Part shown: piece by piece, positions 16,983-51,517 of the stretch | Layout: each line of letters begins with the position of its first letter | Numbering within the stretch: position 1 is the first letter of the stretch | DNA from: Paenibacillus amylolyticus | GTDB taxonomy: Bacteria > Bacillota > Bacilli > Paenibacillales > Paenibacillaceae | Assembly (NCBI RefSeq): GCF_029689945.1 | Contig: NZ_CP121451.1 | Span: forward strand, 6,014,001-6,078,000 | Length of the DNA: 64,000 nucleotides | Reading direction: 5' to 3' | The notes under the pieces: generated by a model | What the model was told of the DNA's origin: nothing | Seen by the model: the letters and a program-made list of their open reading frames with translations, nothing else | Database searches by the model: none | Position numbers and translations under genes: made by a program

Positions 16983-17161
16983 AGTTCAACTAATGAATAT
17001 TTACACTGGCACTCCGATGGCAGAATAACTTTCCGATCGCTGTTATCCCCAGATTTTTTTATTCCTTTTTTTGAAAGGGGAAATCCGGTGATAAAGGCGA
17101 ACGCTCCGCTTCTTCAAGTTATTTCTGCCCTCTCCGTTATCGTGTAAATGTTCAGTTGAAC
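16983..17161 (+). repeat. Interspersed structured repeat, copy A (short form)
   Basis: Terminal inverted repeats: left AGTTCAACT...ATTTACAC, right GTGTAAAT...AGTTGAAC. The inside holds GGCAGAATAACTT pairing with AAGTTATTTCTGCC, and a central CCCC-AGAT / ATCCGG hairpin with AAAGGGG. Lacks the second internal hairpin found in copies B, D and E. Begins directly after the rtcB stop codon. Confidence 0.8.
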
Positions 17162-17169
17162 ATATATGA

Positions 17170-18389
17170 TTAATCTTTATACGGATCGAATTCATTACCT
17201 CCGGCCATGGCGACACCAACGGGACGCAGCACATGGTTGATTTTTAGCGTATTCGCATGTGCATTCAATACGTCTTGCAGTTTCTTATACACAAACGGAC
17301 TTTCGTCTGTGCCCGCTCCCCGCAGTTCCACGCCATAGGCGCGAATCGCCTCATGCATCTGTGCTTCGCTAATCTCACCGCCCATGCGTGTGCGCAGCTT
17401 GTAATTCATTTTGCCAGCCGCCTGGGTTCGGCTCATCGTGCGCCCTGCCCCATGTACAGTGCTGCGGAATGACTCGGTATTCTCCTCGCTGTGGATCCCC
17501 TCCACAATTACCGAGATATCCCCATACTGCCTCCAACAAAACCAAGTTGCCCGGGTGCGAGCGGTGTTGCACCTTTACGGACCACGACTACCTCTTCACC
17601 CATGTGCTGTTCCTTCCAGGCAAAGTTGTGATGGTTATGTACCGTGTATTCAGCACTTACGCCGAGAATGCCGAGCACCTGTTCAATGACATAGTCACGT
17701 CCTGCATAGGCGTACCGGCCCGCCAAAGTCATTCCATCCCAATACATATCACCCAATTCGCTGTTCAAGTCAAACAACGTCGGCGGTTGATCCATGGATT
17801 CGCCCGGCGCTTTGCCACTGAACTGACGCCCTGCGGCCAGGTTAAGGAATCCACTCGCCACTTTGTGACCGAACCCGCGGCTGCCAAAATGATTTGCGAT
17901 CCATACCTTTCCCGTTGCCTCTTCTACAAAAATATCCACGAAATGATTGCCACTGCCTACGGTTCCGAGTTGGTTGCGTGCGAGTGTCTTCAGCTTATGT
18001 TGTAATCCCGGTTCAATGGTATCAAACAGCTTCCAGCTCGCGTCGTCGAACAGTTCATGATCCACAGGTGTTGGATTGTTCCGACCTACGCCGAAAGATA
18101 TGGTCGAATTGATGTCATCCATAATCGTACCAATCTCATCCCGAATATCATCCCACATCAGATGGGTACGCACAGCCTTGTTGCCACAGGCAATATCATA
18201 TCCGACACCAGACGGACTGATCATATTCCGATAAGCGACAACACCACCGATTGGTTGCGAGTATCCTTTGTGATGGTCAGCCATCAGAGCTACACCCAAT
18301 ACATCTCCATATTGCGAGCAAGTCACCGCCTGACTTACGGCATTCTCCAGCGGCTCCCCCCAGACTTTAATGTTATCTACGATACGCAT
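17170..18389 (-). CDS. rtcB: RtcB-family RNA ligase (frameshifted as read)
   Basis: RtcB seals RNA 2',3'-cyclic phosphate to 5'-OH ends using GTP and Mn2+. The frame from 18389 gives 293 residues with DIACGNKAV, GSGNHFVDIF, NHFGSRGFGH and HNHHNFAWKE, the metal-binding histidine set, then breaks at a run of four Cs (17520-17523). Adding one base gives GGSMGDISVIVEG and joins the rest, which holds HGAGRTMSR with the histidine that is guanylylated in the family. Total about 406 residues, normal for the bacterial short form. No rtcA or archease gene is visible nearby. Confidence 0.88.
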
Positions 18390-18523
18390 GATTGTGTTAG
18401 CCTCCTATGTATTATTTTGAATAATTCATCTTCCATTTTGGTCTATTGCTTTCATTAGTTTAACAAAGATCAGCGTGGCTCGAAACGTTCTCTTCCTTCA
18501 ATCACCAATGATGTACACATTAA

Positions 18524-18546
18524 AAAAGAGAGCTTAGCTCCCTTTT
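18524..18546 (-). terminator. Terminator after the small secreted protein gene
   Basis: On the minus strand AAAG-GGAGCT-A-AGCTC-CTTT followed by T6. The rest of 18390-18567 shows no gene. Confidence 0.6.
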
Positions 18547-18567
18547 CTCACGTTTGGTTGTTCCTAT

Positions 18568-18990
18568 TCACTTCTTGCTTATCTTGAACTTGAACGCCCA
18601 AGTTGCTGTGTTACCAGAATATCGACCTCTGTTCTCGGTCACCACTACGGAGAGCGTCTTGTTGGTTGATTTGGAGAATGAAGATAGTTTGACATTGGCC
18701 GTTTTACTCCCATAATCGGGAATCTTGTCCTGTTCTTCAGCGATGGCCTCCAGTTTTAATGTACCTGTGGACTTCAGATTTAACGTGACCGATGAACCTT
18801 CTTCCAGGTCTTTGCCGTTCACACTTGCTCCGATGGCCCACTCATTACCGACAGAGTTATTCTCGACAAGCTCTGCGCTCACCAACGTAACGGTTACCTT
18901 AACCGTTTTGGCGGCAGCATGGGAAGTTGGGGAACACACGGCGAATACCAGACTTAGAATCATGAAAACATTAGCCCATTTTTTGAGCAC
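18568..18990 (-). CDS. Secreted protein of unknown function
   Basis: 140 residues. Signal peptide about 1-26 with cleavage after SHAAA. The mature part is beta-rich (KVTVTLVSAELVENNSVGNE, then STGTLKLEAIAEEQ and a C-terminal TWAFKFKISKK), with no cysteines. It may be a small beta-sandwich. I do not recognise the family. Monocistronic, with its own terminator. Confidence 0.7.
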   Translation of the reverse strand: MLKKWANVFMILSLVFAVCSPTSHAAAKTVKVTVTLVSAELVENNSVGNEWAIGASVNGKDLEEGSSVTLNLKSTGTLKLEAIAEEQDKIPDYGSKTANVKLSSFSKSTNKTLSVVVTENRGRYSGNTATWAFKFKISKK

Positions 18991-19098
18991 GAGAGTGCCT
19001 CCCTCTTATTCGTTTCATTTGTTAAGACTATGCCTTATTCGCCATGATCCTTAAGTAATCCTTCCACTAGTTTAAGAAATTCCCATCCGCTTGGTTAT

Positions 19099-19539
19099 TC
19101 AAAAATGCTTCCGGTAACCCTGCACCTTCTCATCCCTGAAACCCAGTTTCTCATAAAATAGATGCGCTTCTTTACGCTGATCGCCAGACACCAGAATCAT
19201 GTAACCACAACCCAGATCTTTCGCAATCCGCTCAATCTGGAGCATTAATCTCTGCCCGATGCCCTGCCTGCGTACCTGATCCGATACGATCACATTCTCC
19301 ACAACCATGAACGGTTTACACGGGCCTACCAGATCCATACACTCAATCCCCATAACGGAACCAACCAGTTTACCATTGTAAAATGCCCCCAGCACATGAT
19401 AATGACCGTTCTGCTGTATGTATTGGAACATCTTTTTCATCTGCTGCTCATGGGTAGGCATTCCCATCAACTCATTGTATAGCTGACTTAATGCCGGTAA
19501 ATCTTTAAGTTCGATTCCTTTAATGGTAACCATCTTCAT
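19099..19539 (-). CDS. GNAT family N-acetyltransferase
   Basis: 146 residues. Acetyl-CoA pyrophosphate loop RRQGIGQRLM near residues 92-101, preceded by VENVIVSDQV, and the C-terminal AHLFYEKLGFRDEKVQGY typical of the fold. Substrate unknown. One of eight GNAT genes in this window. Upstream neighbour at 19574 is also GNAT but not similar in detail. Confidence 0.88.
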   Translation of the reverse strand: MKMVTIKGIELKDLPALSQLYNELMGMPTHEQQMKKMFQYIQQNGHYHVLGAFYNGKLVGSVMGIECMDLVGPCKPFMVVENVIVSDQVRRQGIGQRLMLQIERIAKDLGCGYMILVSGDQRKEAHLFYEKLGFRDEKVQGYRKHF

Positions 19540-19573
19540 CCTCCTGATTCTATTCTGTTTCCCTTACGTTAAC

Positions 19574-20002
19574 TTAAGTGAGATCCTTTTTAAAATAATA
19601 ATGACTGTGTCCAGTCGGTGCATTCTCGATCGTTGTGATCAAGTGGTAGCCATGCTTCTTGTAAAATTCCGGCGCTTGATAGGAGAACGTGTTCAACATG
19701 ACAAAATCACAAGATTTCTCTCGGGCTATTCGCTCAACTTCAAGCAACAACTGTGAACCATATCCCCGATGCCGTTGTGCAGAATCCACCCAAAGAATAT
19801 CAACCTCCAACCAATTCCAGCAAAGTGTACTAATGACACCTGCAACAATATCGCCGTTCTCATTTTTGATATTGAAATTCAATTCTTCGTAACGATTCCT
19901 TAATTCCTCGCTCACATGCGCAGCATTAAATGCAATAAGCTGATGGCGAACATACTCTGAATCCTCTGAAGTGCTTGGGTTAATATTCCCTTTCAACATC
20001 AT
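19574..20002 (-). CDS. GNAT family N-acetyltransferase
   Basis: 142 residues. Strand WLEVDILWVDSAQRHRGYGS carries the acetyl-CoA loop (RHRGYGSQLL), followed by DFVMLNTFSYQAPEFYKKHG, a pattern seen in small histone-acetyltransferase-HPA2-like GNAT proteins. Ends HSHYYFKKDL, as many Bacillus relatives do. Follows the SDR gene by 20 nt. Confidence 0.88.
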   Translation of the reverse strand: MMLKGNINPSTSEDSEYVRHQLIAFNAAHVSEELRNRYEELNFNIKNENGDIVAGVISTLCWNWLEVDILWVDSAQRHRGYGSQLLLEVERIAREKSCDFVMLNTFSYQAPEFYKKHGYHLITTIENAPTGHSHYYFKKDLT

Positions 20003-20021
20003 CTATTAGCTCCTTTTTATC

Positions 20022-20744
20022 TCAGGCACCACCTGCAATACCATTCTCCTCAAGCGTATGAAGCAACTGCCTCGCTACATCTCGTGGTGATTGTAATTGG
20101 CCTGATTCGTATACTTGATTGAATACCTCAGATAATGCAAATTCTTCTGGATTCTTGCCTCTTGCCGCAGCCTGTAGCTCCGTATCTACCATTCCCGGGT
20201 CGAATGCAACGATCTCCACCGGATTTTCCAATCCGGATTGTTCCATGGCCACACATTGGTTGAACATGTTCATGCCTGCTTTGGAGGTACAATAAGATGC
20301 CATTGAAGGTGCGGGATAAATGCCTGAAGCGGAAGAAACATTAACTATTTTTCTGTGTGTGGTCAGGTGGTTGGTATGTTGTATAAAAGATGAAGTCAGA
20401 ATCATGGGCGCCCCCAAGCTGATATTCAGATTCCGACTAATCTCCTTGGCAGTAGACTGACCTATCGGTTTCAACGGCTCAAGCACGGCTGCATTGTTAA
20501 TAAGCCCGATGAATTCAACTTCCTGTAGCGGAATCCGCCCCAATAGACTTGAGACAAGATCGTCGATACGATCGAGATCTGCAAGATCAAACTGAATATG
20601 CTGATAACGTTCGAAAGCTCCCTCCAAGTCAGACGTTCCGCGTGCAATACCGTAGACGTGATCTCCCTTTTCCAATAAAAGCTCTGCGAGCTGTTTTCCG
20701 ATTCCTTTGGATGTCCCTGTAATGATGTAAAACCTTTGTCCCAT
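20022..20744 (-). CDS. SDR-family NAD(P)-dependent oxidoreductase, benzil-reductase-like
   Basis: 240 residues. Rossmann motif GTSKGIGKQ at about 10-18, NNAAV near 88, catalytic Ser in VNVSSASG and Tyr-Lys in SYCTSK (about 150-155). Resembles the Bacillus YueD group, described as (S)-benzoin-forming benzil reductases, though the natural substrate is uncertain. Cytosolic. Short gap to the GNAT gene downstream suggests co-transcription. Confidence 0.85.
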   Translation of the reverse strand: MGQRFYIITGTSKGIGKQLAELLLEKGDHVYGIARGTSDLEGAFERYQHIQFDLADLDRIDDLVSSLLGRIPLQEVEFIGLINNAAVLEPLKPIGQSTAKEISRNLNISLGAPMILTSSFIQHTNHLTTHRKIVNVSSASGIYPAPSMASYCTSKAGMNMFNQCVAMEQSGLENPVEIVAFDPGMVDTELQAAARGKNPEEFALSEVFNQVYESGQLQSPRDVARQLLHTLEENGIAGGA

Positions 20745-20816
20745 AAGCTTATTCTCCCTTCTCTTACACGGTGCAATATTAGTTGAAGGTCAACCTCTGA
20801 CTTTATAAATCCATAA

Positions 20817-21536
20817 CTACACGTCCGTTTTCTTCCACATGGTCACCCACAAAATCGGTAGGCCAAAACAATCGTCATCCTGCCCCATCGCTTTCATCGG
20901 ACGTAATTCTACACATTCAAATGGATCTTGCAGTAAATAACGAAGCTTTTCCTCCGTAAAGGCCAGCCCGCCTTTCATCGACTTCTCGCGGTATACCTCC
21001 CAATCATCCATGACGCTCTCCGGCCCACCTTGACCACCAAATCCTGGAGCGAAACAAGTCATGCCGAAATATCCTCCAGGCCGGAGCGCATTGTGGATCA
21101 TTTCTATGTAGGGAATGCGCTGATGAGGCAACAGATGGTGCAGACAACCCGAGTCGTAGACAAGATCATATTCTTGCTCTGGAGCCAGTTCAAACACGGA
21201 TCGACATTCAAAGTTCACGTCCAGTTGCTCTTCTGCCGCTCTCTCCTTAGCCCAGGCAATCGCTGTCTCGGAAAGATCATAAGCATCCACCTGATACCCT
21301 TGGCGCGTTAAATACAGTGAATTTCTGCCCGGACCACATCCCAGTTCCAATGCCTTGCCACCTGTCAGCAGACCTGCGTTTACATGTGCTACCAGATTCT
21401 CATCCGGTTTGTTTGGGAAAAAGGGGATGGGTCTGTTCCGATCCTCATAGAACGGCTCCCAAAATTGCTTGGCAGATCTGAAGTCCGCATCGAGCATATC
21501 ATACAGATCCTGTACACTTTTAATCGTCTTTTCCAC
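20817..21536 (-). CDS. Class I SAM-dependent methyltransferase
   Basis: About 239 residues from GTG at 21536, chosen because AAGGAGG lies 9 nt upstream; the longer frame to 21605 starts without a ribosome site. SAM motif I ALELGCGPGRNSLYL, then VDAYDLSETAIAWAK. FFPNKPDENL and the HHLLPHQRIPYIEM segment match the TehB/thiopurine-type small-molecule methyltransferases. Substrate unknown. Monocistronic. Confidence 0.85.
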   Translation of the reverse strand: MEKTIKSVQDLYDMLDADFRSAKQFWEPFYEDRNRPIPFFPNKPDENLVAHVNAGLLTGGKALELGCGPGRNSLYLTRQGYQVDAYDLSETAIAWAKERAAEEQLDVNFECRSVFELAPEQEYDLVYDSGCLHHLLPHQRIPYIEMIHNALRPGGYFGMTCFAPGFGGQGGPESVMDDWEVYREKSMKGGLAFTEEKLRYLLQDPFECVELRPMKAMGQDDDCFGLPILWVTMWKKTDV

Positions 21537-21696
21537 AACCACATTCCTCCTTAGATTCTCCATCCTCACCGTCGTATCCAATTGTTCATTTCTCGTAATT
21601 TCCATTAAATTTGTGACACTCTATTATAACATTTTTAACCATTAATTCTCTATTTTTCTTGCATTTTTTCACTCCAAAACATAAGCTTTTCCCAAC

Positions 21697-21726
21697 AAAA
21701 AACGACCGACATGAATGTCGATCGCT
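21697..21726 (-). terminator. Rho-independent terminator after the VOC gene
   Basis: Minus strand CGATCGACAT-TC-ATGTCGGTCG followed by T6, with a second small hairpin AAAAGCT-CTA-AGCTTTT just before it (21729-21745). Confidence 0.75.
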
Positions 21727-21755
21727 TAAAAAGCTTAGAGCTTTTGAGTTGTCAT

Positions 21756-22139
21756 TTATTTTGCCCGTTCCAAGACTGCGAAGTAATTTCCTTCGTTATC
21801 AGCAAAGTTGAAGACACGTCCGGTTGGCATCTCGACAATCTCTCCAACCGTTACATGTTTGCCAGACAAGTCGGCATATAACTGATCCAGATTTTCAGTG
21901 AAGAACATTAACGAAGGTGTGCCCAGATTTACACCGGCCGACATCCGTTCGACGACCTCTTTGTCATGGAGAATAATACTTGTCTGCGAATCTCGGGTAG
22001 GCGCAATCTCAATCCATCTCATGCCCCCATCAAGATTTACTTCATCCACAATGTGGAATCCTGCGACTTCGGTCCAAAAAGCCAGGGATTCATCTTGGTT
22101 ATTGACATACAACATAATCTGGCCGACTTTGCTAAACAT
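21756..22139 (-). CDS. VOC superfamily (glyoxalase/bleomycin-resistance-like) protein
   Basis: 127 residues, single betaalphabetabetabeta pair: GQIMLYVNNQDESLAFWTEV at the start and GRVFNFADNEGNYFAVLE at the end. Candidate metal ligands include His in FHIVDE and Glu in the last strand. Substrate unassigned; these act on or bind small molecules including antibiotics. Monocistronic, flanked by terminators. Confidence 0.85.
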   Translation of the reverse strand: MFSKVGQIMLYVNNQDESLAFWTEVAGFHIVDEVNLDGGMRWIEIAPTRDSQTSIILHDKEVVERMSAGVNLGTPSLMFFTENLDQLYADLSGKHVTVGEIVEMPTGRVFNFADNEGNYFAVLERAK

Positions 22140-22309
22140 GGATCATTCACTCCTCTGATCATCTCATCTCTCAACATCCTGCTTATCATTCCTCATATTC
22201 CAATAGAGTATAACATGCAAGACGGCTTTTTATCATATTTCTTTAGAGTGAAGTGGATTTCTTTATGATCATCAATGTTTAGTCATCAGATGAGTTTCTT
22301 GAAGTTCCC

Positions 22310-22783
22310 TTATAGGGTTTTAACAAGGGAAAGCCTATGAAACCCCGAGGTATAATAATTCAAATCAACACCTTCTTTTTGAAAATTCATTCGTTCATAA
22401 AATACGAGCGCTGCTTCATTTTCTTTATGATCAAGTGTGTAAAGCATGACATCACTACAACCGAATTCAGCTATTTTTATACATATTTTTGTAATTAGTG
22501 AACGTGCTACTCCCTGTCGAAGGTGTGATCTACATGTAACAACGCCAACGATCTCATACCGGTTAACAGTAGGATGAAAGATATAACCAGCATGACCTAT
22601 AACAACATCTGATTCGTCGACCATGACATAATAAGCTTGGATACGTTCATCCATCATATTTAAAAATGAATCCCAGCGCGCAGGGTACTGATCTCGTATA
22701 AAAGAAGGGAATTGAAAATGATGATCCGTCATCATTTTCAGCACTACTGGTTGATCAATAGCTTGAAAAATCCGAATAGTCAT
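22310..22783 (-). CDS. GNAT family N-acetyltransferase
   Basis: About 157 residues from ATG at 22783 (after AGGTGAT). The loop CRSHLRQGVARSLI carries a variant of the (R/Q)xxGx(G/A) acetyl-CoA motif; then LYTLDHKENEAALVFYERMN. Substrate unknown. Lower GC than its neighbours, which could mean transfer, but the sample is small. Confidence 0.82.
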   Translation of the reverse strand: MTIRIFQAIDQPVVLKMMTDHHFQFPSFIRDQYPARWDSFLNMMDERIQAYYVMVDESDVVIGHAGYIFHPTVNRYEIVGVVTCRSHLRQGVARSLITKICIKIAEFGCSDVMLYTLDHKENEAALVFYERMNFQKEGVDLNYYTSGFHRLSLVKTL

Positions 22784-22887
22784 CTTTTTATCACCTACCC
22801 TTCGTGTGCATGTAAACATCTTTTAAGTTACCAACTTCATAATATTTCATTGCCGCCACCAGTCCTTTCATTACCTCAATAAAAAAT

Positions 22888-22917
22888 AAAGTGTTTGATC
22901 AAAAGATCAAACACTTT
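22888..22917 (-). terminator. Rho-independent terminator
   Basis: Perfect 13-bp stem AAAGTGTTTGATC / GATCAAACACTTT with 4-nt loop and an A/T-rich tail (TATTTTTTAT) on the minus strand. Serves the GNAT gene at 23023. Confidence 0.85.
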
Positions 22918-23022
22918 GCCCAGGCGTACGGCATATTGTAGATGTGCTTCCTCGTGGTTTACTCCACGTTTACGCCAGTCACACACAACAGATATTTAAT
23001 AACTAGTATACATGACTTACAC

Positions 23023-23538
23023 TTATTGCGTGCCTTTTAAGTTCTTCGTCAGATAAAGTACAACATCGTCGTCCATAATTGTTTCTTCACCTGGCTGAAT
23101 GTAATGATCGTGTCTGTGGACACCATGACCGTCCGGTATGTATCCGCGATGGGCATATAAAACTTGTGCTTTGCCATAATCGGAAAATACACCTACACCA
23201 ATACCTGCTACATCCGTTCGTTCCGAAATAACTTCCTCTGCCCGGTCCATCAATCGCGATCCAATACCTTGGCGTTGGAACTTGATCAGCACATTGAAAT
23301 CGTTAATTTCGGGAATGCCTTGTTCCCTGAAAGACGGGTATTTGGAATGCCACAATACATTCACATAACCAGCAAACTCTCCATTCAACTCGGCTACCAA
23401 GGTCAAACGTTCGCCATTCTGCTGTTCAACCAAGTAATGAAGATACTGCTCTTCGAACCTCCCCCAACCCTGCTCCTGGAACGCCTTGGATATGATCACA
23501 GGATCGCTCTCATTTAATAGCCTGATATGTACACTCAC
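23023..23538 (-). CDS. GNAT family N-acetyltransferase
   Basis: 171 residues, GTG start after AAGGAGG. Acetyl-CoA loop FQRQGIGSRLMDRAE near residues 88-102, then VGVFSDYGKAQVLYAHRGYI. Similar in layout to many Bacillus single-gene acetyltransferases annotated only as GNAT. Followed by a strong terminator. Confidence 0.88.
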   Translation of the reverse strand: MSVHIRLLNESDPVIISKAFQEQGWGRFEEQYLHYLVEQQNGERLTLVAELNGEFAGYVNVLWHSKYPSFREQGIPEINDFNVLIKFQRQGIGSRLMDRAEEVISERTDVAGIGVGVFSDYGKAQVLYAHRGYIPDGHGVHRHDHYIQPGEETIMDDDVVLYLTKNLKGTQ

Positions 23539-23573
23539 TGATGAATCCTCCTTATAAAGGTATTTCTCCTAAA

Positions 23574-24098
23574 CTATATTCCCAACCGATCTCGAAGCGA
23601 CGTGATATGAGCCACATGGTGTTTGCCATGCCAAGCATACACGCCCAGATTATAATCCAATCTTGTCGTTTCTTCCGATGACGGATGATAGAATTGTTTG
23701 GCATAATCTGCATCTGTCAACGCGTTTAAAAGAAATACCCAACGACGATGGAGCGCATCCAGAATCTGAAGCGAAAATTCGACATCCAGGTCTCTTGAAT
23801 CACTCAGTTCGGCCCAACGCTCTTCATAATAAGGTCGAATCGTTGGTGTATCCTCTGTCAGTGCCAGCTTGAACCGAATCATACTGTTCATATGACTGTC
23901 TGCCATGTGGTGAATGACTTGTTTGAGCATCCATCCACCTTCTCGATACGGCAGACTTAATTGCTCTTCACTCAGTCCCTTTACCGCTTCGCGCGCACGT
24001 ACAGGTAGCTCAGCAATGTCCTGAATCCACTTCTCCCGCTGTGCCAAAGTAACTTCACCCGTGTGTACAAATGGGCCTATCGGAAATCGTTCATTCAT
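23574..24098 (-). CDS. YfiT/BstA-like putative bacillithiol transferase (DinB fold)
   Basis: 174 residues. DinB-fold metal ligands are visible as His in VIHHMADSHMNS (about 64-70) and in VYAWHGKHHVAHI (about 152-160), giving the three-histidine site of the YfiT/BstA group. Family members transfer bacillithiol to electrophiles. The start MNERFPIGPF is typical of the family. Adjacent to a GNAT gene upstream and downstream but not overlapping. Confidence 0.85.
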   Translation of the reverse strand: MNERFPIGPFVHTGEVTLAQREKWIQDIAELPVRAREAVKGLSEEQLSLPYREGGWMLKQVIHHMADSHMNSMIRFKLALTEDTPTIRPYYEERWAELSDSRDLDVEFSLQILDALHRRWVFLLNALTDADYAKQFYHPSSEETTRLDYNLGVYAWHGKHHVAHITSLRDRLGI

Positions 24099-24148
24099 CC
24101 ATTATTCCTCCTTTTGTGTATGATTCAGAATCATGCTATAAACAGCAA

Positions 24149-25229: not shown

Positions 25230-25245
25230 GTAAATTCCCCCAAGA

Positions 25246-29412: not shown

Positions 29413-29476
29413 ATGTACCTCGCTTTCCAGACTGTGATTATCGAAGTCCTCAACTATATAAACCGAACAAAAAAAT

Positions 29477-29665
29477 ATTTACACTAGCCACTCCGATGAC
29501 AGAACAACCTTCCGATCGCTGTTATCCCCAGATTTTTTGATTCCTTTTTCTAAAGGGTAAATCCGGGGATAAAGGCGAGGTGTATGCTTCCGAAGTAGCT
29601 TTCTTTCAGAAAGCTTTTAGCTCCGCTTCTTCAGGTTATTTCTGTCCTCTACGTTTTGTGTAAAT
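29477..29665 (+). repeat. Interspersed structured repeat, copy B (long form)
   Basis: ATTTACAC...GTGTAAAT ends, GACAGAACAACCTT pairing with AGGTTATTTCTGTC, and the extra internal hairpin AGCTTTCT-TTC-AGAAAGCT. Fills most of the 280-bp gap between the Nudix and HAD genes. Confidence 0.8.
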
Positions 29666-29692
29666 GTTATATTCAATTAATATAACCGCCTT

Positions 29693-30355
29693 CTATAGCA
29701 ATTCCTTTAGCTCCCTAAGATATTCAATTGTATGTAAAGGACTAATCGTGATGCTGTCCTGCCAAGGTTGGTTGACCTTTATCCAGATCGTACTCATGCC
29801 TGCGCTTGCTGCTCCTTGAATATCGTTCACCGGATGATCACCAACGTAAATACATTGCTCCGGGGATAGCCCGAAATAATCAAGTGCAAGCTGAAAGATG
29901 CGTGGATCAGGCTTTTTGACTCCTGCCTCTTCTGAAACAATAATATGGTCGTAGTCATCCCGGATACCGAGTTGATCAATTTTCCCATACTGAATATCGG
30001 TCTGCCCATTGGTAATTAACCCGGTTCGATATTTCTCCCGTAGATGCTGAACGACTTCTCGCGCCTCTTCCATCAGAACGGAACTTCGCACATACTCTCT
30101 GCCATAGAACTCCATCAGTTCTGCATGTGGCGGATGTTCTGCCCAAGGCAGTTCATGCAATAGCTCGTTGAACAGAAGGGGCTTGTCCTTATAACCATCC
30201 TGATCGAGTTCAATGATTCGTTTGCTTACATCTTCGGTTGACTCAAGGTGACCAAAATAAGTCTTAATCAAACGCTGTGTGAAGCTATCAAAGGTCATTG
30301 TTCTGTTGAGAATCGTATTATCCAAATCAAAAATAACAGCTTTAATATGATCCAT
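29693..30355 (-). CDS. HAD-superfamily hydrolase (phosphatase), YjjG/REG-2-like
   Basis: 220 residues. Motif I VIFDLDNTIL at 7-16, motif II TGLITNG, motif III Lys in GVKKPDPRIF, motif IV YVGDHPVNDIQGA. The alpha-helical cap after motif I makes it subfamily IA (HAD-like noncanonical nucleotidase or phosphoglycolate-phosphatase-like). Cytosolic. It is bracketed by two direct copies of the interspersed repeat, B and C. Confidence 0.88.
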   Translation of the reverse strand: MDHIKAVIFDLDNTILNRTMTFDSFTQRLIKTYFGHLESTEDVSKRIIELDQDGYKDKPLLFNELLHELPWAEHPPHAELMEFYGREYVRSSVLMEEAREVVQHLREKYRTGLITNGQTDIQYGKIDQLGIRDDYDHIIVSEEAGVKKPDPRIFQLALDYFGLSPEQCIYVGDHPVNDIQGAASAGMSTIWIKVNQPWQDSITISPLHTIEYLRELKELL

Positions 30356-30372: not shown

Positions 30373-30534
30373 ATCACACTGACACTCCGATGACAGAATA
30401 ACCTTCCAATTGCTGTTACCCCCAGATTTTTTTTGATTCCCTTTTATAAAGGAAAAATCCGGGGATAAAGGCGACCGCTTCGCTTTTTCAAGTTATTTCT
30501 GTCCTCTCCGTGATCGTGTGATGTCTAGTTGAAC
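30373..30534 (+). repeat. Interspersed structured repeat, copy C (short form)
   Basis: CACACTGACACTCCGATGAC at the left, CGTGTGAT then AGTTGAAC at the right; central hairpin CCCC-AGAT...ATCCGGGG. Lacks the second hairpin, as copy A does. The left outer arm (GTTCAA) is missing here. Same orientation as copy B. Confidence 0.75.
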
Positions 30535-30581
30535 TTATAACTACCTCAGTGCAAAAACAGCTTTGATGAAAGAAGCACCAG

Positions 30582-43513: not shown

Positions 43514-43641
43514 ATTTGTTCCCCTTACCTACTTCAGAATGTGTTGTTTAACTCTTCCGCTTTTTCCTGCTATCCATTCTAGCATAAAAATAAAAAGCGA
43601 TAATGTGCAGTACAAGTTATCATCTCGTACATAATAAAAAA

Positions 43642-43660
43642 CTACTCACTCATGAGTAGC
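43642..43660 (-). terminator. Terminator after the 43683 gene
   Basis: CTACTC-ATGAGT-GAGTAG followed by T6 on the minus strand. Confidence 0.7.
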
Positions 43661-43682
43661 CCTCGATGCATCATTTGATATC

Positions 43683-44183: not shown

Positions 44184-44208
44184 AACATGCTCCTCTCTAT
44201 TCACTACT

Positions 44209-44712
44209 TTAGGGATTCTTTGGTGTTTCCACTGCCGGTTCATTCTCGCCGCCCATTCTGCGCCTGGATGTCTCCATCTTCCCTGTCGAAGGCACATGTT
44301 CAGACGCTTTAGCTAATCCGAATTCGGGCATGTTGGCGTATATGGTCTCGAAGGAACCCGATTGAGCCTTGTATGTCTCATGATAGATCCCTACTGTTCC
44401 GTCGGAACCAATGGAGCGGTTGAATCTTTTCCAGGCTTCCAAGTGCAGTCCGCCCCGTGCGTATTTCTCCAATTCATCATATGACCGCCAATATTGAAGT
44501 AACGTCACCCCACGCCAGCTTATAAAGTACTCTGTACTCAGAAATCCGGTCTCCGGATTCATATACAGCTCTTTAATCATCGGGCCCATGGACTGTAGAA
44601 CGGGCAGCCATTTATGTATAGCCCACAGACGATTAATCCTCATTCCGATGATAAAAACAACAAATTCTCCCTCAATCTGAGCTGAATATCTTCGCTTATG
44701 AATATTGACCAC
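44209..44712 (-). CDS. DUF4188 protein, dimeric-barrel monooxygenase-like
   Basis: 167 residues from GTG 44712, spaced 6 nt after AAGGAGG, which overlaps the end of the previous gene. IEGEFVVFIIGMRINRLWAI, GFLSTEYFISWRGVTLLQYW and NMPEFGLAKASEHVP are hallmarks of DUF4188. The fold suggests a small oxygenase or heme-like binder; function not known. The C-terminal 25 residues are low complexity. Confidence 0.8.
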   Translation of the reverse strand: MVNIHKRRYSAQIEGEFVVFIIGMRINRLWAIHKWLPVLQSMGPMIKELYMNPETGFLSTEYFISWRGVTLLQYWRSYDELEKYARGGLHLEAWKRFNRSIGSDGTVGIYHETYKAQSGSFETIYANMPEFGLAKASEHVPSTGKMETSRRRMGGENEPAVETPKNP

Positions 44713-44713
44713 G

Positions 44714-44911
44714 TCACGCCTCCTTCTCGTCCAACATGTACCTGCGTTCAATAAACCTGATCTTACTGGCAATATTAAAAGCTTGGCTTGTCGTCACACC
44801 CTCTTTAATTATATGACCTGCACTATCAAATAATCGGACATTAGTCCACATTAATTCTAATGAATTAGCACACTTATCCGCTTCTTTTCGATCTTCATAT
44901 GACCATTTCAC
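44714..44911 (-). CDS. Small cytosolic protein
   Basis: 65 residues from GTG 44911, whose codon overlaps the stop of the previous gene (GTGA). Helical, charged (KWSYEDRKEADKCANSLELM). Not recognised. Coupled upstream and downstream, so part of a run of three short genes with DUF4188. Confidence 0.55.
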   Translation of the reverse strand: MKWSYEDRKEADKCANSLELMWTNVRLFDSAGHIIKEGVTTSQAFNIASKIRFIERRYMLDEKEA

Positions 44912-45113
44912 CGATGCCTAATATGCTGAGGGACCCACTGTGATCTGAATTTCTTTAATTTTTTGTAGGAAATATACTTCTCGATTCTCCTTCCTCCCCT
45001 GGCCATACCATACACCAATGGACTTTCAGCCATACCGTGACAATATAAAATGTACAGCTTCGCACCCTTCGGAGTTGATTGTCCTTAATAACATTGGCAA
45101 TTACCGCATACAT
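44908..45113 (-). CDS. Small protein, only readable after frame repair
   Basis: ATG 45113 after GGAGGGGA. MYAVIANVIKDNQLRRG meets a broken frame at CCC 45065-45067; with one added G it runs AKLYILYCHGMAESPLVYGM and on to ...HIRHR at 44908, 68 residues. The repaired frame ends exactly at the GTGA overlap with the next gene, which supports it. Function unknown. Confidence 0.5.
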
Positions 45114-45138
45114 CTGGTCTCCCCTCCAATATCTGAAG

Positions 45139-45480
45139 TTAGTTGATCCTCATATTGTCTGCAAACGTTTCTTGATCCAGATTCTCTGCTATTAAAACTC
45201 TCACAATACTAGTCGCGTTGTTGAATTTCATTTTGTTATTCTTCTGTTGGTAGTTCCACCCTTGTCTTATTGCATATTGAATAAAGCTGGATATCAGTTT
45301 GGGTTCATAGACAGATATATCCCAGGTGTCTTCCCAAGCAACGTCGAACTCTACAAAAGTAGATTTAAGCGCATTCGAATAAATCCGAATGATGATATTG
45401 TATGCTTGCTCATCCACAACGTACAGGAAGAGTGCATCATTCACTACAATTTTACGGACTTGTTTCCTGTTTACCTTCAC
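45139..45480 (-). CDS. Uncharacterised small protein
   Basis: 113 residues, GTG start after AAGGTGGGG. Mostly strands and helices of a small alpha/beta domain (DALFLYVVDEQAYNIIIRIY). Not recognised. Confidence 0.55.
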   Translation of the reverse strand: MKVNRKQVRKIVVNDALFLYVVDEQAYNIIIRIYSNALKSTFVEFDVAWEDTWDISVYEPKLISSFIQYAIRQGWNYQQKNNKMKFNNATSIVRVLIAENLDQETFADNMRIN

Positions 45481-45496
45481 GCATACCCCACCTTAC

Positions 45497-46132
45497 TTAC
45501 GCATTGCTGTGTAAAGCTTCATACACATTCCATTCAGTATACAATTGTTTTAGCGCTAATCCTGTTGTATGTATGAACTTTTCCATAGCTTCCATGGATA
45601 TAATATTGAAGTCACCCAAAGGTTCGTTGGCAGGGTTAGCTAAAAACTCCAGTTTCTTTGCCCTATACTGATATACCTCAGCTTCCAGCAATCCACCTAA
45701 ATCATATGCTCTCCCCACTTTCAGCTCACTTAACCAATATTTAGCCTTGTTCCGATTCCTTAAAATCATAAACTCCAGCTTCTTAACATCCTGTGTATAT
45801 TCGCTTCTTCCATTGGGGTGAACTTCATACGCAGGATAGATATCGAATGTCCACACGCGGTCCGTATAGATGTGGGCGATGTAACCGCACAGATATTGCA
45901 TGAATTTGGGATCACTATAAGCTAACGGTTTGTTTGACTCAAAAAAGGCTTTAAACTCTTCGTCTGTTGCAAATCTGCCTTCCTCTGGCATGAGGTGGGT
46001 TTTTGCCTTTTCGGTACGAAGATTGGTTCTTACATGGATGGAATCTGGAGCGAGGCTTCCCAATAACAATTCAGGGGATGGCTCGCAGATTAATTCGGAT
46101 GCAATTGCAAAATGAACCATAGGCCAAGGCAA
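45497..46132 (-). CDS. Zinc-dependent phospholipase C-like hydrolase, paralogue
   Basis: 211 residues from TTG 46132, 8 nt after AAAGGAG, which gives MPWPMVHFAIASELI and matches the start MPLPMVHL of the paralogue at 35742. GSLAPDSIHVRTNLRTEK is the metal-site region; YLCGYIAHIYTDRVW holds further His and Asp. Intact here. The family may act on lipids, but members lack signal peptides, so a cytosolic role is possible. Confidence 0.75.
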   Translation of the reverse strand: MPWPMVHFAIASELICEPSPELLLGSLAPDSIHVRTNLRTEKAKTHLMPEEGRFATDEEFKAFFESNKPLAYSDPKFMQYLCGYIAHIYTDRVWTFDIYPAYEVHPNGRSEYTQDVKKLEFMILRNRNKAKYWLSELKVGRAYDLGGLLEAEVYQYRAKKLEFLANPANEPLGDFNIISMEAMEKFIHTTGLALKQLYTEWNVYEALHSNA

Positions 46133-46178
46133 TATAAAAACTCCTTTCAATATCATGTAAACTACTGTATTAACGCTA

Positions 46179-46730
46179 TCACTCGCGTAATAGTTTAGAC
46201 TCTCCTTGCTTCAAATCAACAAATATAGGCTTCTGCACATTGTTTATTGTGGAAATATCAATCTCATCAAGATATCTGAAAACAAGCTGCAATGATTCCT
46301 TTTGTTCATCTTCAAATAAAAGAGTTACCTGGTCATCACAGAGTTTCCCCTCCAACTCTGCAATAACGTCAAATAAAAACATTACAAATACTACTTCATT
46401 TCCATCCGGATACGTATAGTGCATTCTCTCGCCCGTGTATATGGAGGCCAATTCATAAGAACTCACTTCAAGCCCTGTTTCCTCTTTCACTTCTCTAATC
46501 ATGGTTTCTTCGATTCGTTCACCTGGCTCCATACCCCCACCTGGTAATCCCCAATCTCCATAATCAGATCTCTTTTGCAGCAGAACCCTTCCCATATGAT
46601 CTCGAATAATAGCTCCACCCGTAACTACAATACGACTAGTCATGCCTCTGCCCCTCTCTGTTGGGTTGCTTCTGACGGCCCCCCTTACACGATCACTTCC
46701 GTAGACTCCTCTTAATTCATCATAACCCAT
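46179..46730 (-). CDS. Nudix hydrolase
   Basis: 183 residues if started at 46730 (MGYDELRGVYGSD, which resembles the MGY-x-x-LR opening of Bacillus Nudix proteins); ATG 46643 has a GAGGGG site and would give 154. The Nudix helix is complete at the GGGMEPGERIEETMIREVKE / ETGL stretch. VVTGGAIIRDHMGRVLLQKR shows the first strands. Probably a nucleotide or NTP-like substrate. Slightly AT-rich. Confidence 0.82.
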   Translation of the reverse strand: MGYDELRGVYGSDRVRGAVRSNPTERGRGMTSRIVVTGGAIIRDHMGRVLLQKRSDYGDWGLPGGGMEPGERIEETMIREVKEETGLEVSSYELASIYTGERMHYTYPDGNEVVFVMFLFDVIAELEGKLCDDQVTLLFEDEQKESLQLVFRYLDEIDISTINNVQKPIFVDLKQGESKLLRE

Positions 46731-46831
46731 GTATTGGTAAATGGAAATTGAAAAAGATCCTATCCACCTCCCAACGCATGAGAAGCAAATCGGACCTAAA
46801 AAAAATAAATTACACTCAAAAAACCTTTCGT

Positions 46832-47359
46832 TTACTCAGAAATTCTGCCTCTTCGCACAAAAGTCTGAGACAAAATCCGGTGGCTACCCGGTATGTTGTC
46901 AATCTCAATGTTATGTTCAGACTCGGTATATTCAATCTGATGTTGCTCATAATACTTTTTCCAGAACGAAACTGCTGCTGCATTGTTAGCGAGTTGTCCT
47001 ACTTGGAATCTACCCTGAAACTGAGCAAAAACCAAGTCAACCGCTTGTGCTGCCAGTCCCTGTCCGCGATACTTTTTGATCAGGAACAGCTCCTGCACGG
47101 TATAATCCACATTTTCCGGCACATATGGAGGTGAGCACATCAAGACGAATCCAATCACTTTCCCTTCGTACTGAATCAAAAACGGATGCAGCTCATCGCG
47201 TTCCAAATATAGATACGTGTTGGTTGGATCGTATGTACCCTCTTCCAGCAGATCTTCGCCCGAGAATTCAGACAGATCATATAAATACAAGTTGAACAGA
47301 TTGAGAAACAATTCCTTTTGTTCTGGCAAAATACGCGTAATATGTACATTCATCTTCAT
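46832..47359 (-). CDS. GNAT family N-acetyltransferase
   Basis: 175 residues, start after GGGAGAGG. Acetyl-CoA loop KYRGQGLAAQAVDLVFAQFQ near residues 95-114, preceded by VQELFLIKK, then NAAAVSFWKKYYEQHQ. Bacterial GNATs of this subtype often have LYDLSEF-GED near residue 30, as here. Substrate unknown. Confidence 0.88.
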   Translation of the reverse strand: MKMNVHITRILPEQKELFLNLFNLYLYDLSEFSGEDLLEEGTYDPTNTYLYLERDELHPFLIQYEGKVIGFVLMCSPPYVPENVDYTVQELFLIKKYRGQGLAAQAVDLVFAQFQGRFQVGQLANNAAAVSFWKKYYEQHQIEYTESEHNIEIDNIPGSHRILSQTFVRRGRISE

Positions 47360-47538
47360 TGCACCTCTCCCTTATCATTAGTTCGTTAATGATCCACACA
47401 AGACTACCGATATTCACAACGAGCTTGCTCTGTCATGATCTCAATATATCGTTTCAACCCCAGCAGACATAGGCAAAGTTTGATTTAAACCATAGATAAC
47501 CTTACTTTCAAATTGGACATGAACATCTGTACAAAAAA

Positions 47539-47556
47539 AAGACTCCCTACAGAGTC
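47539..47556 (-). terminator. Terminator after the isochorismatase gene and repeat copy D
   Basis: GACTC-TGTAGG-GAGTC followed by T8 on the minus strand. Confidence 0.75.
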
Positions 47557-47628
47557 TGATTATTGGTCTTATCTTATTTTTACCAAGTATCCATTAGCAC
47601 TTAGCTAATAATTATTGAATGATATAGG

Positions 47629-47842
47629 TTCAACTTACTTTTTACACAAAAACGGAGAGGACAGAAATAACCTGAAGAAGCGGAGCTAAAAGCTTTCTGC
47701 AAGAAAGCTGCCTCGGAAGCATACACTTCGCCTTTATCACCGGATTTCCCCTTTAAAAAAGGAATCAAAAAAATCTGGGGATAACAGCAATCGGAAGGTT
47801 GTTCTGTCATTGGAGTGTCAGTGTAAACCTCTTTAGTTGAAC
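47629..47842 (-). repeat. Interspersed structured repeat, copy D (long form, inverted)
   Basis: Read on the minus strand: GTTCAACT..TTTACACTGACACTCC at the left, GTGTAAAAAGTAAGTTGAA at the right, with the AGCTTTCT-TGC-AGAAAGCT hairpin. The element is in the downstream region of the isochorismatase gene; an 85-residue frame over it is repeat-derived. Confidence 0.8.
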
Positions 47843-48327
47843 TTATATAGATAATCAACTACAGGATATGAGATCACATTGCGATCTCTGTACGTTGAAG
47901 TCACCGCTTCGTGATGTGTGCTAAGAATTCCGTTTTGCAACATTACCGGTCGGAAACCTCGCTCCATCGCTCCGTTGTAGGTGAATAGAACACATTCCTC
48001 TGCGGCAAAACCGGCGATGATCAATAGTTCTATGCCATGACTCTTCAACACCTGCTCCAGATCGGTCTGCCAGAAGGCATTAGACGCTTCCTTCGTAACC
48101 GTGATATCCTTCTCATTCACATCCACCTCGGGAATAATGCGATACTCTTCTGGCTCTGCCTCTTCCATACCTTCCACATCCTGAACGTGAACAACCTTAT
48201 GATCATTCGAGCGCAGTACGTTGGCCACATGGTTAATGTACTCGCAAGCATGGTCTATTGAAATCTGGTCCATCTTTTTCCGCACAATACTCTCTTGCAT
48301 ATCAACAATCAGCAAACCTACCTTCAT
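47833..48327 (-). CDS. Isochorismatase-family cysteine hydrolase
   Basis: 164 residues from ATG 48327 after GAGGAG. GLLIVDMQESIV carries the catalytic Asp, KEASNAFWQTDLE the Lys, IIAGFAAEECVLFTYNGAME the Cys. Nicotinamidase/isochorismatase fold; substrate unknown. Its 3' end touches repeat copy D. Confidence 0.88.
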   Translation of the reverse strand: MKVGLLIVDMQESIVRKKMDQISIDHACEYINHVANVLRSNDHKVVHVQDVEGMEEAEPEEYRIIPEVDVNEKDITVTKEASNAFWQTDLEQVLKSHGIELLIIAGFAAEECVLFTYNGAMERGFRPVMLQNGILSTHHEAVTSTYRDRNVISYPVVDYLYKFN

Positions 48328-48355
48328 CCAATCGCTCCTCAACAATAAATTCAAC

Positions 48356-49066
48356 TTAATCTTTAAATAATTCATTCAGCATCCGGTCACGGTTCTCCAG
48401 AAAGCTGCGAGTAATCTGATAATGATCGGTATCCTCATAGGTTACCTCTTGAATATGGCTATCGTCAAAACTTAAAATCTCTGCCCCCGGATACCCCAGC
48501 AAAATGGGTGAGTGCGTCGCAATAATGAATTGCGAAGTGCCTGACAGATCATGAAGGATGCGCAATAACGAGAGCTGCCTGGCTGGAGATAAAGCGGCTT
48601 CGGGCTCGTCGAGCAGATAGATGCCTTTGGAACTGAAGCGATTGACGAACAGACTGAGAAAAGACTCCCCGTGCGACTGCTTATGCAATGAACGCCCGCC
48701 ATAATACCGAAGTGATTCCGGCATCTCATCGACATGTGATGCAAACTGATAGAAGGACTCCGAGCGCATGAAGAAGCCATTTGTTATTTTGGGCAACCAT
48801 GCCAGTCTTAGATAGTTCCCGAGCGAGGACTCCGAAGCATGTGTCTCATAGCTATTATTCCTGCCTCCCCCTGCGGTATTGAATCCACATTGATGAGCGA
48901 TGCCTTCCAGCAGCGTTGATTTCCCTGAACCATTTTCACCTACAAAAAAAGTAATGTTATTCGTGAACTCCAATCGTTTCAAGGACCGGATCGTGGGGAT
49001 GTCAAAAGGATATTGGTCTCGATTCTCAATCTTGGCCGACATGAGTTCCACACTTCGAAGATACAT
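48356..49066 (-). CDS. AAA-family ATPase (ABC/SMC-type, stand-alone)
   Basis: 236 residues from ATG 49066 after GGGAGG. Walker A GENGSGKSTLL, signature-like QSHGESFLSLF, Walker B GIYLLDEPEAALSP, switch His in ATHSPILLGYP. Matches predicted ATPases of the YhaN-like/DUF2813 or Wzm-like soluble kind (RecF-related). No partner genes next to it, so not a complete defence system. Ends 28 nt before the isochorismatase start, possibly co-transcribed. Confidence 0.8.
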   Translation of the reverse strand: MYLRSVELMSAKIENRDQYPFDIPTIRSLKRLEFTNNITFFVGENGSGKSTLLEGIAHQCGFNTAGGGRNNSYETHASESSLGNYLRLAWLPKITNGFFMRSESFYQFASHVDEMPESLRYYGGRSLHKQSHGESFLSLFVNRFSSKGIYLLDEPEAALSPARQLSLLRILHDLSGTSQFIIATHSPILLGYPGAEILSFDDSHIQEVTYEDTDHYQITRSFLENRDRMLNELFKD

Positions 49067-49165
49067 AATCATCCTCCCGATGTGTTCTATTTCAATCTAA
49101 CGCTCAGATTCATTCCCTTTCCATCGTACCCTATAACGGGGTTCATATGAAACCGTATCAACCAA

Positions 49166-49192
49166 AAAGAGCAAGCCATAGGCTTACTCTCT
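49166..49192 (-). terminator. Terminator after the GT2-GtrA gene
   Basis: AGAGTAAGCC / GGCTTGCTCT with T5 on the minus strand. Confidence 0.75.
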
Positions 49193-49200
49193 CTTCAGGG

Positions 49201-50213
49201 TTAATAAACAAATCTGCGCTGCGCCCAATAGCTAAATACAAAGATGGACACTTCGGTCAATAGTTTGGCAGCGAGCAGCGGGATGATCAGTTTTTCATTA
49301 TAAAAATACAGCAAACCGTAGTTTAATAACAGCACCAGCAGGACAAGTGAGAAGTATTTGGGCAAAGACTGCCGAACCTTGGAGGTTCGTCCTGCGGAGA
49401 ACACATACTTCCGGTTAATCGTATAGTTGAAGATGGAACTGCATAATCTTGCTGCAACAACCGACAGAAACAGATTATGCGTGAAATACTGGATAACGAA
49501 TAGTAATCCAAAATCAATCAGAGCAGACAATACCGAAGAAGTGCTGAACATCAGAATTGGCAGATAGATGCGGAACGAATCAACCAGTGGGCGGAAATGG
49601 GAGGACTCATTGTGATCCAGATACACTGTATCAATAAACTCCTCCGTAATCTCATACCCTTCCTTGTGTGCCGTTAACAGCATGTTCATCTCGTATTCAA
49701 ATCGATCCCCGGGAATCTGGTTCAACCAGTCCAGCATGGCGTAGGGAAAACCGCGTAGACCCGTTTGCGTATCATATACCTTGGTACCTGTCGTGAGGGA
49801 AAAGACCGCTCGTGTGACTGTATTGCCAAAACGACTGCGTGCTGGAATTTTACCACTGAAGCGACGACTGCCGAGTACAATTCCGGGTGTCGTTTGGGCG
49901 AGCAATACTTCAAGAATACGCTTAATATCATGTGGCAGATGCTGCCCGTCACTGTCTGCACACACTACACCGCCCTGAGGTCCGTGCTTTTGAATGTACT
50001 GAAAGCCTGTCTTCAATGCTCTGCCCTTGCCCAGATTGACGGGATGTGTCAGGACCGTACAGCCATAGGCTTCTGCCGTTTCGAAAATTCCACGGTAACC
50101 GGTCCACTGCCATCATCCACGATCACAATGGGTCCAAGCTTGAATGTCTGTAACTGCAGAACGAGATTCAGTAAACGCACATCGGGTTCGTAAGATGGAA
50201 TTAATATCGTCAT
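49201..50213 (-). CDS. GT2 glycosyltransferase fused to GtrA membrane domain (frameshifted as read)
   Basis: ATG 50213, MTILIPSYEPDVRLLNLVLQ, UDP-sugar motif IVIVDDGSGP, then a broken frame at CC 50099-50100. One G restores GYRGIFETAEAYGCTVLTHP and joins ADSDGQHLPHDIKRIL (acceptor-site Asp pair). About 337 residues; the last 115 are four membrane helices of the GtrA kind. Such proteins make or use polyprenyl-phosphate-linked sugars (family knowledge). Coupled to the phosphodiester glycosidase by an ATGA overlap. Confidence 0.85.
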
Positions 50214-51223
50214 GATCCTTGTCCCTCCGTCAGATATAGAATGTCACTTACGCCGCGTTCCTGGTCACGCCCCAGCGGATTATTCACGACTCTACCCATA
50301 AAATACATTGTGGATGAACCGCCGCCGTCCAGATTGTAGGCTTCGGTTGCTCCAAGGCCTTTCATGACATCGGCCAGTTCTGCCAAGGTCATGCCACGGC
50401 TGTCGTCCTGCCGTCCGTCCACCACCACAAAGACATAATGATTCGGAGCAATCATGCCGATCGCTGTTCTTGGATTCGCATCCTGGATGGAGCGGTTACC
50501 GAAGTTGGTATCGATTTTCACACTGCTAAAATCACTGACGATCTCGCCATCCTGAACCAGAATGGGCCCAAAGGATAATGTATTAGTTGCACCTTCGGCC
50601 AGCAGTTCCGAGGAAGAAATCTCGTTCTCGTTATATGTTTTTATCGTTCCGTCATTGAACAGGGCCAGTGCATCCCGTGTCGGGCTATCCCGGTACAACG
50701 TCCCATTTCGGATAATGACACCATCATCACGGAATCCGTAATAGTCCCCATTAATGGCAAAGATCGCATTGTTGGCTGCGGCAATCTCTGACGTATTCTC
50801 GGTAATGTTCGTTCCAAAACTGTTATCCGCCAGCGCAGTTCGCAGGCTGCTTGCATCTGTTAGCTGAACATCAGCGACATAATACGTAATCTGATCGGAG
50901 CCAGATCCTGTCTGTACCTTATCGATATGGACCTCCATATCATCACTCGAATAATTCCAATCATCTGACGTTGCGTTCACATCAGTTGCGGTGGTTGCAG
51001 TGCTGGTGGAATCATTCGTGCTTCCCGTTGCTGCCGTTGCCGTGTTCTCATCCGCGACAACCACCTGTACATGCCTAATCAGGTAACGGTCAGCCAGGCT
51101 GTACAGGATTCCACCTACTGCGAGCACCATGACAAGTGTGATGATGAGCCATCTTCGTTTTCTTGGGGAGATTGGTCTTTTATGTGGGTCTTTCCGGGTT
51201 GGTTTCTGATAGATCTTCATCAT
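50210..51223 (-). CDS. Membrane-anchored phosphodiester glycosidase (NAGPA domain)
   Basis: 337 residues. Transmembrane anchor about 24-45, a Ser/Thr/Ala-rich linker (about 58-90), then the phosphodiester glycosidase (NAGPA/DUF2233) domain: NAIFAINGDYYGFRDDGVII, TYNENEISSSELLAEGATN, PRTAIGMIAPNHYVFVVVDG, YNLDGGGSSTMYFMG. Homologues release sugars from phosphodiester-linked glycans. Outside-facing. Makes an operon with the GT2-GtrA gene; together they suggest tailoring of a surface glycan (inference). Confidence 0.88.
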   Translation of the reverse strand: MMKIYQKPTRKDPHKRPISPRKRRWLIITLVMVLAVGGILYSLADRYLIRHVQVVVADENTATAATGSTNDSTSTATTATDVNATSDDWNYSSDDMEVHIDKVQTGSGSDQITYYVADVQLTDASSLRTALADNSFGTNITENTSEIAAANNAIFAINGDYYGFRDDGVIIRNGTLYRDSPTRDALALFNDGTIKTYNENEISSSELLAEGATNTLSFGPILVQDGEIVSDFSSVKIDTNFGNRSIQDANPRTAIGMIAPNHYVFVVVDGRQDDSRGMTLAELADVMKGLGATEAYNLDGGGSSTMYFMGRVVNNPLGRDQERGVSDILYLTEGQGS

Positions 51224-51300
51224 GTGAAGCTCACCTCTTCATCTAAGTTCTTAAGGCCATATTAGGCCGGGTAGCTTAAATGAATCTGAAACCAAATGAA

Positions 51301-51517
51301 TTGAACTAAGGAATATTCACACTGACACTACGATGACAGAACAACCTTCCAATCGCTGTTACCCCCAGATTTTTTTGATTCCCCTTTTCTAAAGGGGAAA
51401 ATCCGGGGATAAAGGCGAAGCGTATGCTTCCGAAGTAGCTTTCTTGCAGAAAGCTTTTAGCTTCGCTTTTTCAGGTTTTTTCTGTCCTCTCCGCTATTTT
51501 GTGAATGAATAGTTCAA
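51301..51517 (+). repeat. Interspersed structured repeat, copy E (long form)
   Basis: TTGAACT...TTCACAC at the left, GTGAATG...AGTTCAA at the right; perfect TTCCCCTTT-TCT-AAAGGGGAA hairpin and GCGAAGC / GCTTCGC around AGCTTTCT-TGC-AGAAAGCT. Upstream of the phosphodiester glycosidase and downstream of the radical SAM gene. Confidence 0.8.

Follow-up and report, generated by a model that had tools for sequence, protein, structure and literature searches.

Intergenic repeats that fold into hairpins raise the question of whether they persist as mobile DNA, as structured RNA, or as both. We examined this question for a repeat that occurs in five copies (A to E) in a 64,000-nucleotide stretch of the Paenibacillus amylolyticus genome (contig NZ_CP121451.1, positions 6,014,001 to 6,078,000; hereafter, the window). 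A preliminary description made from the sequence alone had proposed a miniature inverted-repeat transposable element (MITE) mobilised in trans, a repetitive extragenic palindromic (REP)-like element, or a structured RNA. Our analysis indicated that the MITE and structured-RNA readings are not alternatives, as a predicted RNA fold is carried inside a MITE. With moderate confidence, we regard the repeat as a covarying, order-wide element, predicted to be a folded RNA, which in this lineage is enclosed by IS630-type repeats, has likely spread in trans, and is likely transcribed in the untranslated regions of its neighbours. The REP-like reading found no support in size or anatomy (a core of 124 positions with a three-part fold vs palindromes of 20–40 bases); no search was aimed at a REP-associated tyrosine transposase.

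The preliminary description had spoken of a five-copy family. All five copies were located in the window sequence and recovered by a covariance model, whereas as a family size five proved a large underestimate: a 400-kb stretch of the same genome (L170–L189) held 15 model cores scoring 50 bits or more, from which about 250 copies per genome were extrapolated. A BLAST search of this genome (G000, 6.83 Mb) with copy E gave 40 scored matches of 207 first-look candidates. At the DNA level, the family was detected in 32 of 59 genomes, namely 32 of 36 from Paenibacillus (G000 included) and 0 of 23 from other genera, and public titles of related loci named P. xylanexedens, P. amylolyticus and others. 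Plasmid matches comprised two records to the sister core (a short sister form of the repeat) and one to a window copy, all from P. cellulosilyticus; phages, queried with copy E only, gave no match. The P. cellulosilyticus record NZ_CP054609.1 ("plasmid unnamed1"; L371) encodes recO, glyQ, glyS, dnaG and rpoD, and looks like a chromosome piece or a second chromosome.

Intact copies end in TATAAGTTGAACTAA inverted repeats and sit in CTAG-like targets with TA duplicated. Alignment of 30 copies from the same genome, with base counts at 76 left ends, gave ends of the form TATAA(G/A)TTGAACTAA with TA before them, often C. The 15-base pattern TATAARTTGAACTAA was found 171 times in this genome at up to 2 mismatches, vs 61 times for the reversed control. 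Target-site duplications and empty sites in relatives, which the preliminary description had suggested looking for, were both found: syntenic tracts from four genomes contained filled and empty versions of sites, and 4 of the 11 sites compared had a junction that read as a clean TA duplication. At the first, the empty site CTTCTAGCAAA corresponds to a filled CTTC-TA-[TATAAATTGAAC...GTTCAATTTATA]-TA-GAAAA, and at the second, TCTAGCATA corresponds to TTC-TA-[...]-TA-GCAAA; the third is a CTAGATATGGGG site, and the fourth is that of window copy D, seen through its orthologue in genome G016 vs L063 and L066. The flanks of these four sites differ at 3–10 of 28 bases (divergence or small indels). 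No compared site needs a duplication other than TA, with site B fitting less well: it is empty in three relatives, yet 2 bases are left unexplained by the TA model. A 6-bp TATATA duplication at site B was considered and dropped after the comparison of filled and empty sites. Among copies in the tracts, 12 of 39 had both terminal repeats with at most 3 mismatches; for sister-type copies the count was 1 of 60, and for random positions 3 of 4000. Ends were recognisable in 23 tract copies when a lenient 5 mismatches were permitted, and 12 of these had TA on both sides. IS630 elements duplicate a TA target and prefer CTAG.

Two further observations were made on the shell. Remnants with outer arms but without part or all of the centre occur at the L293 locus in genomes G014 and G061 and at sites A and E in G011 and G016, and look as if the hairpin had been deleted. 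A composite-element (cassette) idea, based on close pairs of copies in (-,+) order, was rejected: three longer pairs hold ordinary-looking open reading frames (ORFs), and the short pairs are largely orthologues of two loci.

No ORF longer than 85 amino acids lies on the window copies, and the element, at approximately 170–230 bp, has no transposase gene. The DDE_3 domain gave no match in the P. amylolyticus genome at an E-value of 0.001, and matched 21 of the 75 genus genomes, with 19 of these matches above the cut-off. Five of the 30 retrieved DDE_3 loci (L251, L256, L271, L272 and L273, from four genomes) are IS630-family loci of 1162–1167 bp between inverted repeats that differ by at most 2 mismatches from the end of the window repeat itself; some of the remaining DDE_3 loci have related ends. 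L251 and L272 contain two reading frames, a helix-turn-helix part and a DDE_3 part, both of which best match the IS630 transposase NF033545 (the second part above the cut-off, the first below). Among the copy-rich genomes compared, no DDE_3 match was obtained in G000, G011 or G016, and the match in G008 was a 28.3-bit fragment. Because the same ends occur on IS630 elements elsewhere in the genus and no DDE_3 match was obtained in the genome itself, the repeat is an IS630-type MITE, likely moved in trans; an IS630-family transposase now missing from this genome would have moved these copies. Mobilisation in trans is thus supported for this lineage by the matching IS630 ends, the TA duplication and the empty sites, movement itself being predicted from sequence comparison. 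Separately, other IS630-type elements of the genus, at DDE_3 loci of the L153 type (L253, L257, L262 and L274), have related but different ends, approximately CTATATAGAACGCAATTAA.

Such features could belong to a purely selfish MITE, whose palindrome is kept for transposase or single-stranded DNA hairpins or by arm-to-arm copying in replication, with no RNA function. The terminal repeats, the TA duplication and the empty sites agree with this explanation, as do the presence of both orientations beside genes and the uniformity of the long MITE cores. The properties of the core nevertheless led us to consider it unlikely. The core is a three-part fold of 124 model positions that in other species occurs without those terminal repeats; in ten other genomes of the genus, weaker matches covered the centre of the repeat only. 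In the window orientation, diverged copies share a nearly invariant CTTCCGATCGCTGTT - stem - AAAGGCGAACGCTnnCGCTTCTTCAG arrangement in which the stem is rewritten from copy to copy (TTATCCCCGGAT/ATCCGGGGATAA, TTGCAACGGGAT/ATCCCGTTGCAA, TTGCCTCCAGAT/ATCTGGAGGCAA and more). A nearly fixed loop between rewritten stems, in a core that exists without terminal repeats and across the order, argues against selfish spread as the whole explanation.

Covariation was measured in an alignment of 54 cores in the predicted RNA strand (A3; 47 representatives of the diverged set plus 7 window-type copies of the short form), which was made by MAFFT with structure not used. One of 61 diverged copies was left out before clustering, two of 51 representatives before alignment A1, and L328 and L299 before A3. 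Over 40 pairs, 94.6% of 2117 cells were paired, vs 80.2% in shuffled alignments and 35.5–50.0% with slid structures. Two-sided change was found in 26 of the 40 pairs and in 315 cells (19.7 and 85.5 in shuffles), the covariation score was 0.438 vs 0.164, and none of 500 shuffles reached any of the five measures. With the fold predicted for the other strand, in 56 cores, two-sided change was observed in 20 of 31 pairs. The further copies in the genome and its relatives, and covariation far above shuffles, are the opposite of what the preliminary description had named as refuting its proposal. At one orthologous site, the inner stem of L157, L281, L282 and L290 is wholly different from that of L296 and L297 (TTATCCCC vs TTGCAACG type) although its flanks are conserved; this swap could reflect gene conversion among copies or rapid paired change. 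In flanks and single-sequence folds inspected by eye, the outermost arms of sister-type copies such as L088, L371 and L307 vary from locus to locus but seem complementary, which would extend the hairpin.

The mismatches carry a strand signal. In the (+) orientation with its predicted structure, the 56 cores contained 1644 Watson-Crick cells, 13 G.U, 46 A.C and 31 other mismatches, where independence would give 116 G.U and 142 A.C. A.C exceeded G.U by cells (p = 1.9e-5), by pairs (21 vs 5, p = 0.0025) and by sequences (21 vs 7, p = 0.0125), with the reservation that related copies are not independent and that strand-biased mutation could add to the bias. The A.C excess on the written strand points to an RNA from the opposite strand, where these 46 cells are wobble pairs. 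The fold of copy E is more stable on the (-) strand, the same strand as the predicted RNA. The DNA-level processes of a selfish MITE should give G.U and A.C alike.

The preliminary description had also suggested a covariance model; the one built from A3 (R1) gave matches across the genus and the order. R1 matched 75 of 75 genomes of the genus and 198 of 246 of the order (Paenibacillus included), in 32 of 46 genera, its matches on A3 copies not being independent and its E-values rough. Of 299 phylum genomes, 5 were matched, all five from the family to which the window genome belongs, a result that doubles as a specificity control. The order is that of GTDB; NCBI puts Paenibacillus and Saccharibacillus in Paenibacillaceae, order Caryophanales. 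The loop is mostly kept and the stems are quite different in P. typhae, P. algorifonticola, P. camerounensis, P. cellulosilyticus, Paenibacillus sp. SY21-1 and Saccharibacillus, and short helices of P. camerounensis and P. typhae show the paired change UCGC/GCGA to CCGC/GCGG. Judged by this distribution, the core is older and wider than the transposon shell. For this older and wider part, the structured-RNA proposal is supported by covariation, the one-strand mismatch bias and presence without transposon ends. No Rfam 15 family reached its gathering score on the element in the loci scanned, the best sub-threshold match being mir-3910 (28.4 bits vs 95). Literature searches within one library returned no title on this repeat, and none of 12 passages from a P. 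riograndensis transcriptome paper (PMC5670726) names such a motif.

Position relative to genes was analysed for 42 copies from the P. amylolyticus genome with a simple ORF caller. In 28 of the 42 copies, the predicted 3' end was the one closer to an ORF boundary (p = 0.044), the median free sequence being 20.5 bases on the 3' side and 106.5 bases on the 5' side. At one sister locus in six genomes (L157, L281, L282, L290, L296 and L297), the same gene has the element immediately before its ribosome-binding site. This closeness to gene boundaries suggests a role in untranslated regions. The larger free space on the 5' side would also fit one kind of small RNA encoded at many loci, each core having its own promoter upstream, and in some intergenic regions two cores lie with their predicted 5' sides facing (L371, 5992-6119(-) and 6718-6842(+); L313, L314 and their orthologues). 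However, several copies lie directly before a ribosome-binding site, and it would be unusual for one small RNA to have hundreds of loci; of the explanations weighed here, we hold this to be the least probable.

Slightly less remote, though still improbable, are very long intrinsic terminators or attenuators, in which transcripts would end at the T-run after the outer stem, with the core serving as a spacer or control element. Several sister-type copies have the outer stem followed by a T-run, and at some loci copies lie between convergent genes, but the MITE form ends in TTATATAG rather than a T-run, and a plain terminator needs no fixed loop. A run of four or more T within 70 bases was present in 24 of 37 non-window copies, a count that has no control and was not used as support.

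For the favoured reading, an RNA fold inside a MITE, the working molecule would be an RNA with the 5' half CUGAAGAAGCG..CGUUCGCCUUU and the 3' half AACAGCGAUCGGAAG. Its nearly fixed loop may bind a protein or other partner, and the fold, where it lies next to a start or stop codon, could change the expression or stability of the message. More tentatively, and with clear doubt, the element may be a regulatory RNA, spread over the order in many copies, whose single nearly fixed binding loop would link dozens to hundreds of genes per genome to one partner; the transposon shell would have made this riboregulator a self-spreading module that places ready-made RNA control beside new genes.

Several results weigh against the reading we favour. 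The structure was derived from the same alignment on which it was tested, and related copies are not independent, a relatedness that shuffles leave in place. The 25 long MITE cores taken alone vary little, with two-sided change in 7 of 38 pairs, as a recent spread would leave them; the covariation therefore owes most to other species and is no proof of selection on the MITE copies. Between tandem genes, 21 copies were sense and 10 antisense, which was not significant (p = 0.07). At the other 7 of the 11 compared sites, including A, B and E, ends or flanks were too changed or fitted TA worse. Finally, for copies that lack terminal repeats, comparison of one locus across 12 genomes and of a few tract sites turned up no clean empty site, which leaves the mobility of this form unsupported.

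The window copies are listed below. The paired arm changes quoted in the preliminary description were correct on re-reading of the sequence: copy A carries GGCAG/CTGCC and AACTT/AAGTT, and copies B, D and E carry GACAG/CTGTC and AACCT/AGGTT. In copy C the two types mix: AACCT faces AAGTT, which gives A.C on the written strand and G.U on the opposite strand. Copies A and C are similar to the short sister form, and the AGCTTTCT hairpin of B, D and E is a lengthened version of the core's small GC hairpin, a change that a folded RNA would tolerate. Full-strength cores scored 113.9 (A), 90.5 (B), 104.5 (C), 80.1 (D) and 91.4 bits (E) with the covariance model, and the other 5 of its 10 matches in the window were opposite-strand shadows of the same five copies (18–24 bits). 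The predicted fold of copy E had an energy of -74.2 kcal/mol on the (+) strand (z = -6.2) and -83.4 kcal/mol on the (-) strand (z = -7.9), and none of 200 shuffles was equally low on either strand. On the left, where copy C has no terminal repeat, it adjoins the start of a HAD-hydrolase gene (29693-30355(-)), and copy D overlaps the 3' end of an isochorismatase-domain ORF (47833-48375(-)). The sole Rfam match of the window at gathering score was a ZMP/ZTP riboswitch aptamer (RF01750, 58.7 bits).

Copies of the repeat and other located features, in window coordinates
Feature	Position	Strand	Core	Remarks
Copy A, short form	16979..17166	(-)	17015-17134(-)	terminal inverted repeat to terminal inverted repeat; left end degenerate
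ZMP/ZTP riboswitch aptamer	22911-22992	(-)		
Copy B, long form	29457..29682	(-)	29494-29651(-)	TA flanks 29455-29456 and 29683-29684
Extra AGCTTTCT...AGAAAGCT hairpin of copy B	29597..29615	no strand		expanded small GC hairpin of core
Copy C, short form	30373..30539	(-)	30388-30508(-)	without left terminal repeat
Copy D, long form, inverted	47623..47847	(+)	47655-47812(+)	
Copy E, long form	51295..51523	(-)	51331-51491(-)	degenerate ends

With a core in 198 of 246 genomes of the order, a nearly fixed loop amid stems rewritten by paired changes, a strand bias, and occurrence both in and out of a MITE shell, the family makes testable the question of whether a mobile repeat can carry or capture an RNA that is selected as RNA. 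It also marks a practical gap, as Rfam 15, at the loci scanned, has no name for a repeat so abundant in the genomes of a widely used genus.

Among known repeats of Bacilli, bcr1 of the Bacillus cereus group is a high-copy intergenic repeat with a predicted fold; its likeness to the Paenibacillus repeat was judged by description only. The Correia and ERIC elements are described as palindromic MITEs beside genes, with transcripts that RNase III or RNase E can cut, in passages of PMC10969869. They belong to other phyla and were compared by description only, and in the 299 genomes of the window's phylum R1 matched nothing beyond the family of the window genome. RUP of Streptococcus pneumoniae is an intergenic repeat of approximately 107 bp with approximately 110 copies, a predicted fold, IS630-Spn1-like terminal repeats and a target duplication, and is almost absent beyond S. 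pneumoniae and S. mitis, according to passages of PMC3049150. As a mobile unit with IS630-type ends, the Paenibacillus repeat resembles RUP so described. BOX of S. pneumoniae, in the same source, is a modular folded repeat of approximately 125 copies with an optional boxB, transcribed examples and ISSpn2-like terminal repeats; the Paenibacillus repeat shares its folding and modularity, by description only, but has IS630-type ends, and its transcription is predicted only. The passages on BOX and RUP judge them parasitic, partly for their near-confinement to one lineage. Relative to RUP and BOX as presented there, what sets the Paenibacillus repeat apart is its order-wide spread, a core that exists independently of the shell and its terminal repeats, and covariation around a nearly fixed loop.

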